Of a stretch of 64,000 bases of DNA, positions 18,543 to 61,225 are shown in pieces. Numbering within the stretch: position 1 is the stretch's first letter; the number at the start of each line of letters is the position of its first letter. A program made the translations under genes and the position numbers. The notes under the pieces are model-generated. The model was not told where the DNA came from, did not search any database, and saw nothing but the letters and a program-made list of their open reading frames with translations. This DNA is from Beggiatoa alba B18LD (GTDB lineage Bacteria > Pseudomonadota > Gammaproteobacteria > Beggiatoales > Beggiatoaceae), in contig NZ_JH600070.1 in assembly GCF_000245015.1 (NCBI RefSeq), positions 3,145,252 through 3,209,251 on the forward strand, written 5' to 3'.

Positions 18543-18932
18543 TTACTCTGCTTCTACAGGCTCAACAGTCATTTCTGGTCTATCAACCAACTCGACAATA
18601 GCCATAGGAGCTTTGTCACCAGCTCTAAAACCACATTTCAGGATACGTAAATATCCACCTGGACGCTCTTTATAACGAGGACCTAATTCATTAAATAACT
18701 TGGTAACAATTTCCCGATCACGCAGTCTTGCAAACGCTAAACGACGTTTAGCGACGCTATCTTCTTTCGCTAACGTGATTAAAGGTTCAGCAACACGACG
18801 TAACTCTTTCGCTTTGGGCAATGTTGTTTTGATGATTTCGTGACGCATCAAGGAAGCCGCCATATTCTTAAACATGGCTTTTCGATGACTGCTGTTACGA
18901 CTCAGCTGTCTGCCCGCATTACGATGACGCAT
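18543..18932 (-). CDS. rplQ: 50S ribosomal protein L17
   Basis: 129 residues. Opens [20 protein letters not shown], the invariant L17 start, with [19 protein letters not shown] in the middle. It ends with the acidic tail EPVEAE. Last gene of the alpha operon (rpsM-rpsK-rpsD-rpoA-rplQ) and of the whole supercluster; a terminator lies 19 bases on. Located near the peptide exit of the large subunit. Confidence 0.98.
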
Positions 18933-26709: not shown

Positions 26710-27078
26710 TTACAGCACTTCGGGTGCCAGAGAGATGATCTTCATGAAACTTTCTGTTCTCAGTTCACGCGTCACTGGTCCGAATATGCGAGTTCCAATA
26801 GGTTGTTTTTGATTGTTCAATAATACTGCTGCATTAGTATCGAAACGAATCACCGAACCATCTGAACGACGAATACCCTTACGGGTTCTTACGACCACTG
26901 CGTTGTAAACTTCGCCTTTTTTTACTTTACCACGCGGTATCGCTTCTTTTACGCTAACTTTAATAACATCACCAATATTTGCGTAGCGGCGATGTGAACC
27001 ACCCAACACCTTGATGCACATTAAACGTCGTGCACCACTGTTGTCTGCCGCCTCAAGCATTGTTTGCATTTGTATCAT
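26710..27078 (-). CDS. rplN: 50S ribosomal protein L14
   Basis: 122 residues: [20 protein letters not shown] start, [19 protein letters not shown] and the end [12 protein letters not shown]. Sits at the subunit interface and binds RsfS. First gene of the spc operon, 188 bases after rpsQ, which marks the operon boundary. Confidence 0.98.
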
Positions 27079-27128: not shown

Positions 27129-27163
27129 TAATGATAACATTATTTTTTTTGAATGAAAAGAGC

Positions 27164-27206
27164 CACCACCTTTCTTAAACACTGAATCGGTTTAAAAAAG
27201 GTGGTG
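27164..27206 (-). terminator. Long hairpin at the S10/spc operon junction
   Basis: 17-base arms (CACCACCTTTCTTAAAC, 27164-27180, and GTTTAAAAAAGGTGGTG, 27190-27206) pair with a single mismatch. In the minus-strand transcript the stem is followed by GGCTCTTTTC, a weak U-run. It could be a partial terminator after rpsQ or a processing site. A second hairpin lies just before it in transcript order. Confidence 0.55.
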
Positions 27207-27248
27207 CGCGGCAGGTAACTCGTTGTTAATCAATTGTAAAGTGTACTA

Positions 27249-33571: not shown

Positions 33572-33699
33572 CAGTTATATCCTCTACGATTTCTGATTTA
33601 CGATGTAAACCTAACCGGAAAAATAAAATAATGATTTTTGACTTTTGAGCAACATGAAGTAGCCGCAAAAATCAAAAACCAAAAATTAAAACGAATGAA

Positions 33700-36374: not shown

Positions 36375-36749
36375 TTAGGATTTAGGACGCTTCGCGCCGT
36401 ACTTGGAACGTCCTTGCCGTCTTGCGTTTACACCAGAGGTATCTAAACACCCGCGTACTGTGTGATAACGCACACCGGGTAAGTCTTTCACACGTCCACC
36501 ACGAATCAACACGACGGAGTGCTCTTGTAAGTTATGTCCTTCCCCACCAATGTAGGTCGTTACTTCCATACCGTTTGTTAACCGCACACGCGCAACTTTA
36601 CGCATCGCAGAGTTTGGCTTTTTGGGGGTAGTGGTATAAACACGCGTACACACGCCCCGCTTTTGCGGACACCCATTAAGGGCAGGCACATTGCTCTTAG
36701 TCTGTGGCGATTTGCGCGGTTTACGCACTAACTGATTAATTGTTGCCAT
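36375..36749 (-). CDS. rpsL: 30S ribosomal protein S12
   Basis: 124 residues. [20 protein letters not shown] carries the streptomycin-determining Lys (E. coli K43) in wild-type form. [17 protein letters not shown] holds the Asp that RimO methylthiolates in E. coli. Controls decoding accuracy. First gene of the supercluster, preceded by the promoter and leader described separately. Confidence 0.98.
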
Positions 36750-36820
36750 AATTGCTCCGAATACAGGGGCTGGTACTACGTACAGACGACTTAAAAGCTC
36801 ATCTGTTAAGAAATCAATGA

Positions 36821-36866
36821 AATAAAAACGAGCTGAAATTTTAACAGAATTCCAGCTCTTTAGAGC
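36821..36866 (-). promoter_or_regulatory. Attenuator-like competing hairpins in the rpsL leader
   Basis: In the minus-strand transcript GAGCTGGAATT (36858-36848) pairs with AATTTCAGCTC (36840-36830) and is followed by GTTTTTATTTC, which looks like an intrinsic terminator. A few bases earlier GCTCT-AA-AGAGC (36866-36855) can form a smaller hairpin that uses the same AGAGC, so the two folds exclude each other. The expected transcript start is about 36866, putting this at the very 5' end. Confidence 0.55.
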
Positions 36867-36872
36867 CGAAGG

Positions 36873-36901
36873 ATAATAATGATGTTTTATTGCGCTGTCA
36901 A
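36873..36901 (-). promoter_or_regulatory. Canonical sigma70 promoter of the str operon
   Basis: On the minus strand TTGACA (36901-36896), a 17-base spacer and TATTAT (36878-36873) give an essentially ideal promoter, about 120 bases upstream of rpsL. It is the strongest promoter match seen in the window, as expected for the head of a ribosomal protein supercluster. Confidence 0.8.
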
Positions 36902-37104
36902 GTCTTTAAAAAGAAAACTTTTAAGTATTTTGTGGAGTTGTAAGACATAAAAATTTTTTAACGAGATAATTTAGAAGGAATGATTTTGTTGCACTTCAAG
37001 TGCGTATGTACTGTAAAAATGAATTGAAGCTATTTTTTTATTTTAAAAAATGGCGTGTATATGACTTGACATTCTTAATTTAACCTCGTTTAATCGCCCG
37101 CGAC

Positions 37105-37287
37105 TTAATAGGGGTGAGTGTATCACTCACGATTCTGGGAAATTGGTGCAAAGCCAATACTGCCCCCGCAACGGTAAGTTCAGTTAAACGTCAGTTCAAA
37201 AACCACTGTGCCTAAATCGCATGGGAAGGGAACTTGATGAGGATAATTATCATTATTCGCTGACAAGTCCGGATACCGACCTATTAA
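37105..37287 (+). promoter_or_regulatory. Cobalamin riboswitch before btuB
   Basis: The closing stem P1 is TTAATAGG (37105-37112) with CCTATTAA (37280-37287), a perfect 8-bp pairing. Inside are the aptamer words GGGAAATTGGTGCAAAGCC, GCCCCCGCAACGGT, AACCACTGTG, ATGGGAAGG and the B12 box AGTCCGGATACCGACC. Adenosylcobalamin binding should reduce btuB expression. Downstream, TGTTGC-GGAGG-GCAACA (from about 37300) may belong to the expression platform, but I could not assign the switching helix. Confidence 0.93.
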
Positions 37288-37413
37288 GGGTGTACTGTCG
37301 TGTTGCGGAGGGCAACAGGCTGATGCGTGGTTTACGTTTTTTTATGTGTCATTGCGTCCGTTTTTTACCTCTGCACACTTTCATGATAATTCGATGAAGT
37401 AAGGAAGTGTGTC

Positions 37414-39258: not shown

Positions 39259-39294
39259 AGGACTGCCAGTCCTTCAAGGACTGGCGGTTCTTTT
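39259..39294 (+). terminator. Terminator after btuB
   Basis: Stem ACTGCCAGTCC / GGACTGGCGGT, with one G-U pair, closes over a short loop and runs into TTCTTTT. It lies 18 bases after the btuB stop. The word AGGACTGCCAGTCCTTC recurs near 48313 and, inverted, inside repeat copy 1. Confidence 0.8.
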
Positions 39295-42065: not shown

Positions 42066-42288
42066 TAACCTGAATTCGGCGATTTTTATAAAATAAAACA
42101 GAAACCTGCTAGGTTTTCAAAACTTAGCGGGTCTTTTTTTGTCTGAATCAGAATTCACAGAATTTTCAGAATTAGCGGAATTAAAAAACGTTATTCACCT
42201 GACTTTTGGGTTTGAGGGTTTTAAATCCTGTTAATCCTGATTCAGACAAGCTGTTATCGTTTAAAAGAAACTCGCCGAACTCAGGTTA
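42066..42288. repeat. Dispersed repeat copy 4, most complete copy
   Basis: 223 bases with left end AACCTGAATTCGGCGAT and right end CTCGCCGAACTCAGGTT. Order inside: TTATAAAATAAAACAGA, hairpin CCTGCTAGGTTTTC / AAAACTTAGCGGGT followed by seven T, TTGTCTGAATCAGAATTCAC, GAATTAGCGGAATT, AATCCTGTTAATCCTGATT, CAGACAAGCTGTTATC. It has no reading frame of note. It serves as the reference copy for the family in this window. Confidence 0.85.
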
Positions 42289-42331: not shown

Positions 42332-42347
42332 TGATGCTTACTTAACG

Positions 42348-61024: not shown

Positions 61025-61225
61025 TTTCGGCATCCCCTGCTTAGGTTGTGAAAGCTTGTAATACTCTTGAACCTATAATTTTGCATCTCGGGAATAAAGA
61101 GTTACTGATTTTGTTGTGCATGCCCACCTTGAAGTGGGAAGTCTGATAAATCGCTCGATATACCCACTTGAACCACACGGTTCAGAGATGTCGCCGTAAC
61201 AAACTGGGTAGGTGGGTGCTTTTAG
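61025..61225 (+). ncRNA. ssrS: Probable 6S RNA
   Basis: The 353-base region after zapA is where gammaproteobacteria keep 6S RNA. Closing pairing: GCATCCCCT (61030-61038) with GGTGGGTGC (61211-61219), one mismatch. Inside are CCCCTGCTTAGG, the family-like CCACCTTGAAGTGGG hairpin and a second CACTTGAACC-ACAC-GGTTCA hairpin, comparable with the CACCUUGAACC segment of E. coli and Pseudomonas 6S. Length about 200 bases fits. 6S binds and inhibits the sigma70 holoenzyme. Exact ends are estimated; the downstream ygfA gene usual in enterics is missing. Confidence 0.62.

Follow-up and report, generated by a model that had tools for sequence, protein, structure and literature searches.

A terminator-like hairpin close behind the str promoter of Beggiatoa alba and its recurrence in other rpsL leaders

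Introduction

Naville and Gautheret (2010) predicted intrinsic terminators in 5′ rpsL leaders from several genera and, in the available text of their study, call these elements multiform (PMC2965389); attenuators in rpsL leaders were also predicted by Merino and Yanofsky (2005), as cited in the same text. In Escherichia coli, the control that is documented in the available part of PMC10931766 is translational, with S7 acting as a repressor at the rpsL-rpsG spacer. A shorter rpsL RNA has been detected by RNAtag-seq and northern blot in enteropathogenic E. coli in stationary phase and is ascribed, in the authors' words, to 'premature termination or processing' (PMC10687069); the available text of that study does not give the position at which the RNA ends, and it may therefore not correspond to the hairpin described below. 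Term-seq data from E. coli reveal that 5′ leaders of ribosomal-protein operons contain defined 3′ ends, with rpsL unnamed in the main text (PMC7815308). In the available portions of two further reports, a screen in Shewanella includes rpsL among the ribosomal-protein leaders (PMC2659441) and Pelagibacter has a different rpsL motif (PMC2704228). No rpsL leader appears in the available text of two other studies, a survey of newly described ribosomal leaders (PMC7247131) and an analysis of 3′ ends in P. aeruginosa (PMC8297930).

Here we describe the rpsL leader of Beggiatoa alba B18LD on a stretch of 64,000 nucleotides (contig NZ_JH600070.1, positions 3,145,252 to 3,209,251), which is called the window throughout and to which all positions refer, and compare it with rpsL leaders of relatives and of other bacteria.

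Results and Discussion

Promoter and leader upstream of rpsL

The rpsL gene (S12, Pfam PF00164) is located at 36375-36749 on the minus strand with its start codon at 36749. We take it to be the first gene of a str-S10-spc-alpha cluster that presumably extends as far as a frame at 18543, which we identify as rplQ, and we read the same-strand frames behind it as rpsG, fusA and tuf, followed by the S10, spc and alpha groups. Pfam support within the cluster was obtained for rpsL only, and the other gene names were assigned from the translations. The upstream neighbour of rpsL is a divergent gene for a TonB-dependent receptor (PF00593/PF07715), which is itself preceded by a cobalamin riboswitch (37093-37298). 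Further along the window a 6S RNA gene was found at 61035-61214. Two other hairpins on the minus strand were seen within the cluster, namely a terminator-like one between the fusA and tuf frames (33632-33681, -20 kcal/mol, tail TTATTTTAT) and a strong one at 27162-27209 (-26.5 kcal/mol, tail TCTTTTCAT). The latter is directly upstream of a frame of 122 amino acids (26710-27078), which we read as rplN, near the S10-spc junction.

An earlier note on this DNA had described a promoter of the form TTGACA-17-TATTAT ahead of rpsL with a terminator-like hairpin and U-run right behind it, and both features are present where it placed them. The -35 box TTGACA (36896-36901) and the -10 box TATTAT (36873-36878) are separated by 17 bp on the minus strand, and the promoter as a whole (36901-36873) has 11 of 12 consensus bases; similar promoters recur ahead of rpsL in relatives. 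With a spacing of 7 nt after the -10 box we infer a start at about 36866, within a region (36863-36867, minus strand) where the profile of the 69 leaders described below also places the beginning of a pyrimidine-rich tract. The terminator-like hairpin, GAGCTGGAATT-CTGTTAA-AATTTCAGCTC, follows at 36858-36830 on the minus strand with 11 bp and -13.4 kcal/mol, a stability that none of 200 shuffles of the 31-nt hairpin piece reached. It is trailed by the U-run GTTTTTATTT (36820-36829, minus strand), and together they lie 80 nt ahead of the rpsL start codon. G-C pairs are few in this stem, and the U-run is interrupted by G and A. Downstream, also on the minus strand, the leader fold contains a second hairpin, ACAGAUGA/UCGUCUGU (36782-36806), which is kept in the congener, and a third hairpin with the Shine-Dalgarno motif GGAGC (36754-36780).

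Neither string is exceptional when taken alone. Promoter strings with at least 11 of 12 consensus bases occur at 2 sites on both strands of the 64-kb window versus 1.8 expected from shuffles, so that the rpsL promoter as a string is within chance, and terminator-like hairpins of -10 kcal/mol or below number 110 on both strands versus 68 to 86 in five shuffles. The point of the finding is the combination of promoter and hairpin and its recurrence.

Recurrence of the hairpin and U-run in rpsL leaders

The comparison was based on 123 rpsL leaders from the window's genome and its relatives, from 80 loci of named genome contigs (some of them outside the Gammaproteobacteria) and from E. coli K-12, after removal of one locus without rpsL (L119) and one repeat (L122, identical to L042). 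The best promoter per leader was picked without regard to hairpins, and 69 leaders had one with at least 10 of 12 consensus bases and with its -10 box ending 40-260 nt before the ATG; the other 54 of the 123 were left out. Hairpins were counted if they had -7.5 kcal/mol or less, were followed by a U-run and started within 30 nt of the -10 box. Such hairpins were present in 31 of the 69 leaders versus 7.2 expected from dinucleotide shuffles. The excess was found both in the window's genome and its relatives (11/25 versus 3.0) and in the remaining loci (20/44 versus 4.2). When the leaders were divided into bins of 30 nt past the -10 box, hairpins were counted in 30 of 69 leaders in the first bin and in 6/68, 6/45, 2/27 and 3/12 in the following ones, with none in the few leaders that extend beyond the fifth (the first bin holds 30 and not 31 because hairpins were merged over the whole leader in this count). 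Admission of promoters down to 9 of 12 bases raised the number of hairpin-bearing leaders to 42, and in 30 of these the stem starts 9-16 nt past the -10 box. At the settings used, 38 of the 69 leaders lack an early hairpin with U-run, among them the family members L009, L013 and L026, and the hairpin is therefore not essential; that of L037 is poor.

Leaders of other ribosomal-protein genes served as controls. In rplM leaders of the same family, a promoter with at least 10 of 12 bases was found in 27 of 30, and only one of these 27 carries the hairpin, compared with 10 of 22 rpsL leaders of the family (36 leaders given, 14 without a promoter). Most of the rplM controls are too short for such a hairpin, 16 of 27 being under 60 nt; among leaders of at least 60 nt the counts are 1/11 for rplM versus 10/21 for rpsL (one-sided Fisher p 0.03), and the length-matched difference is modest. 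For rplK, rpsB and rplU none of the five recognisable promoters was accompanied by the hairpin, in a set with too few control promoters to compare (rplK 1 in 22 readable leaders from 30 loci, rpsB 0/30, rplU 4/30). The rplK leaders themselves display GGGGAGC followed by ACCC shortly before the gene in 16 of 21 cases (by eye, in the last 60 nt), a pattern that resembles a ribosomal-protein leader.

Stem pairing and U-runs of the early hairpins

Pairing was assessed by comparing how well a segment pairs with the downstream sequence of its own leader and with that of other leaders, using 63 leaders that were picked blind to hairpins and thinned of near-identical members. Positions 15-22 pair better with their own downstream sequence (z -8.7; z -9.4 on a 69-leader set that includes leaders picked for a hairpin). 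The stem sequences differ among the leaders while the pairing is preserved, and the covariation in relatives that the earlier note had proposed as a check is thereby found for the terminator stem. In the congener (L002) all 11 pairs are kept, with an identical 5′ arm and two one-sided changes in the 3′ arm (G-U to G-C and U-A to U-G). From the -35 box to the ATG, 134 of 153 columns agree between the two, versus 136 of 250 immediately upstream.

U-runs also follow such hairpins more often than expected. Among the 63 leaders, stable early hairpins have at least 5 T in the 8 positions behind them in 15 of 49 cases versus 2.7 expected. The search without a U-run condition often fuses neighbouring hairpins and was therefore used only for this count. 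These numbers bear on the alternative that the hairpin is a 5′-terminal stem-loop that shields the mRNA from decay initiated at its 5′ end, which we regard as unlikely. Such stem-loops stabilise mRNA in E. coli, where few unpaired 5′ bases are tolerated. The stems do lie near the predicted start, beginning 9-16 nt past the -10 box in most of the 42 hairpin-bearing leaders and only 3-4 nt past it in those of the E. coli type, and in the window the terminator-like hairpin belongs to the fold of the full-length leader. However, stabilisation needs no U-run, and 8 nt separate the predicted start from the stem in the window, which is above the few unpaired bases tolerated, even if 4 of the 8 could pair in a mini-hairpin.

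It might also be argued that the hairpin terminates an upstream unit and lies downstream of the rpsL promoter by chance. Co-directional tRNA genes are indeed found upstream in L004 and L034 (and in others by eye), rpoC in L012 and L039, and tusB in E. coli. Gene direction judged by ORF length is unreliable in loci of high G+C content, where the antisense frame may be open, so that only cases checked with Pfam were used. Among these, the nearest recognised upstream gene is divergent, with no tRNA gene in between, in the window, L002, L003, L025 and L037, all of which have the hairpin. As the upstream gene of the window is divergent, the hairpin there does not serve an upstream operon, and for this locus the explanation is largely refuted. 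Moreover, polymerases from the rpsL promoter must pass the hairpin regardless of what lies upstream. For the leaders in general we consider a role in ending an upstream unit very improbable.

Compared with three hairpins just past gene ends in the window, the leader hairpin is weaker, with -12.0 in the scan versus -16.1 (at 42104), -23.5 (at 39260) and -25.8 (at 42332), which would fit a leaky stop. Two known types of control were considered and set aside. Antitermination by Nus factors at a boxA has little to act on, since the best match to the boxA consensus in the window's own leader is 6/11 and at least 9/11 is reached in only 1 of the 69 leaders; the mean best match of 6.0, versus 5.3 in shuffles (sd 0.12), is what a pyrimidine tract would give. 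Attenuation by reiterative transcription of the B. subtilis pyrG type features a G-run at the start and a C-rich arm, and the start found here has neither.

The competing 5′ hairpin

The earlier note had further pointed to a small hairpin at the extreme 5′ end that shares an arm with the terminator-like hairpin, and this observation is correct. The small hairpin, TTCGGCTC-TAAA-GAGCTGGA, spans 36851-36870 on the minus strand and would have -10.1 kcal/mol if it were transcribed whole. Positions 36858-36851 are common to both structures, which makes the two folds mutually exclusive. The note took this as attenuation of the whole str cluster. In a true switch of this type the 5′ hairpin would act as antiterminator. 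Apart from the overlap itself, several observations are in line with such a switch. The congener has GGCTCTAAAGAGCTGG unchanged, several Pseudomonas leaders have a CCCC at the start that can pair with the GGGG of the terminator arm, and an early competing fold of -2 kcal/mol or less is possible in 28 of the 42 hairpin-bearing leaders. Furthermore, the tract at the start favours the downstream sequence of its own leader over that of others, both across the 63 blind-chosen leaders (z -3.5 to -4.6) and in the set including hairpin-picked leaders (z -3.6 to -5.0), both of which contain E. coli-type leaders whose tract is itself the terminator arm.

Against this, the 5′ hairpin lies partly upstream of the predicted start. 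An RNA beginning at 36866 would hold only GCUC/GAGC (36866-36855), a competitor of 4 bp with -4.5 kcal/mol versus -13.4 kcal/mol for the terminator, and when the complete leader is folded to minimum energy the terminator-like hairpin stays intact. Across the leaders, competing folds average -2.9 versus -2.25 in shuffles. In the 24 hairpin-bearing leaders with a stem at least 9 nt past the -10 box, the tract shows marginal specificity, whether it is set against its own terminator arm (z from -0.7 to -1.8, p from 0.04 to 0.24) or against all of the sequence that precedes the 3′ arm (z from -0.6 to -1.7, p from 0.05 to 0.26). This test is blind to a competitor whose generic pairing is common to all leaders. 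On this measure the 5′ hairpin is not clearly conserved. The tract has a simpler interpretation as well. A G+C-rich discriminator is common to the 69 rpsL leaders, as is a pyrimidine tract that covers positions 7-11 past the -10 box, and the tract that supplies the 5′ arm is also present at rplM, where the hairpin is rare, with 4.11 pyrimidines of 5 versus 4.55 at rpsL. It therefore seems to belong generally to ribosomal-protein promoters of this type and only happens to provide the 5′ arm.

In view of the weak competitor, the marginal specificity of pairing and a leader fold that keeps the terminator, we do not think that the two RNA folds alone form a switch, and we give that proposal little credence. 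What stands of the attenuation claim is a terminator near the promoter with the potential to attenuate the entire cluster, for which the enrichment at rpsL, the lower frequency at rplM, the covariation of the stem and the U-runs all speak. A different contact of the 5′ end is seen in both congeners, where the terminal GCUC is complementary to a GAGC in the Shine-Dalgarno region, a pairing that would close a three-hairpin leader (36754-36866). Over the 69 leaders, own partners do only marginally better than swapped ones in the corresponding comparison (z -1.1 to -2.3, p 0.13 to 0.01).

A probable leaky terminator behind the str promoter

Judged from the sequence features described above, the hairpin with its U-run is probably a leaky intrinsic terminator, that is an attenuator, close behind the str promoter. 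It would occupy about +9 to +46 of the transcript of the str cluster. RNA polymerase would leave the strong promoter, synthesize about 45 nt and meet the hairpin and U-run, where a fraction of the polymerases would stop and release a short RNA and the rest would go on to transcribe rpsL and the genes behind it. Read-through might amount to a fixed fraction, or it might be set by a factor acting on the polymerase or on the nascent hairpin; either a factor or a plain fixed leak seems likelier than a switch made from two RNA folds alone. If active, such a terminator would be a transcriptional gate on a ribosomal-protein and EF-G/EF-Tu cluster of 18 kb, which is among the largest investments that the cell makes; textbooks describe the control of this operon as translational. 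More tentatively, and with rather more doubt than confidence on our side, a terminator less than 50 nt into the str transcript may be a widespread control point of Gammaproteobacteria, E. coli included, at which transcription of the whole cluster (here str-S10-spc-alpha) would be set before translational feedback by S7, with stem sequences that drift while hairpin and U-run stay.

Comparison with known systems

The closest described elements are the attenuators of Naville and Gautheret. As in the window, a terminator was predicted in the rpsL leader and no globally conserved sequence was reported in the available text of that study (PMC2965389). The same text proposes an antiterminator for each variant, whereas the only overlapping fold of the window is weak and not clearly conserved, and it names no example from the Thiotrichales. 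On its sequence, the element of the window would be of the same kind as these published rpsL-leader attenuators, a known and still poorly tested kind.

No meaningful Rfam match was obtained for the rpsL leader of the window; in particular, RF01773 (rpsL_pseudo) gave no score above its gathering cut-off in the window, and it is not among the three matches that a search of 36700-36950 gave with E values up to 10. The family does match in 3 of the 4 Pseudomonas loci given. In one of them (L073, match at 1366-1501) the third hairpin of RF01773 and the U-run are placed like those of the window relative to the promoter and rpsL, while the first two hairpins overlap the inferred -35 box TTGACT and -10 box TAGACT. 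The proposed antiterminator may therefore be untranscribed promoter DNA. All nine loci titled Pseudomonas have a promoter with 17-bp spacing beside the hairpin; 8 of the nine score only 9/12, and these promoters were picked jointly with the hairpin. We suggest a re-examination of the RF01773 model, since its upstream hairpins seem to coincide in part with promoter DNA.

The earlier note had also contrasted the proposed attenuation with the translational control by S7 in E. coli. A contrast with E. coli is wrong, since E. coli K-12 has the same layout, with a promoter TTGACA-17-TAAAAT followed by GCGTCCTCATATTGTGTGAGGACGT and TTTATTACG, so that its transcript opens with a hairpin and TTTTATTA. 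Control by S7 takes place at another point of this operon and is compatible with a promoter-proximal terminator. The two leaders differ in that the E. coli stem starts 3 nt past the -10 box versus 14 nt in the window, and in that a separate competing 5′ hairpin was not found in the E. coli K-12 leader. The shared layout of promoter, hairpin and U-run makes the element directly testable in a laboratory strain.
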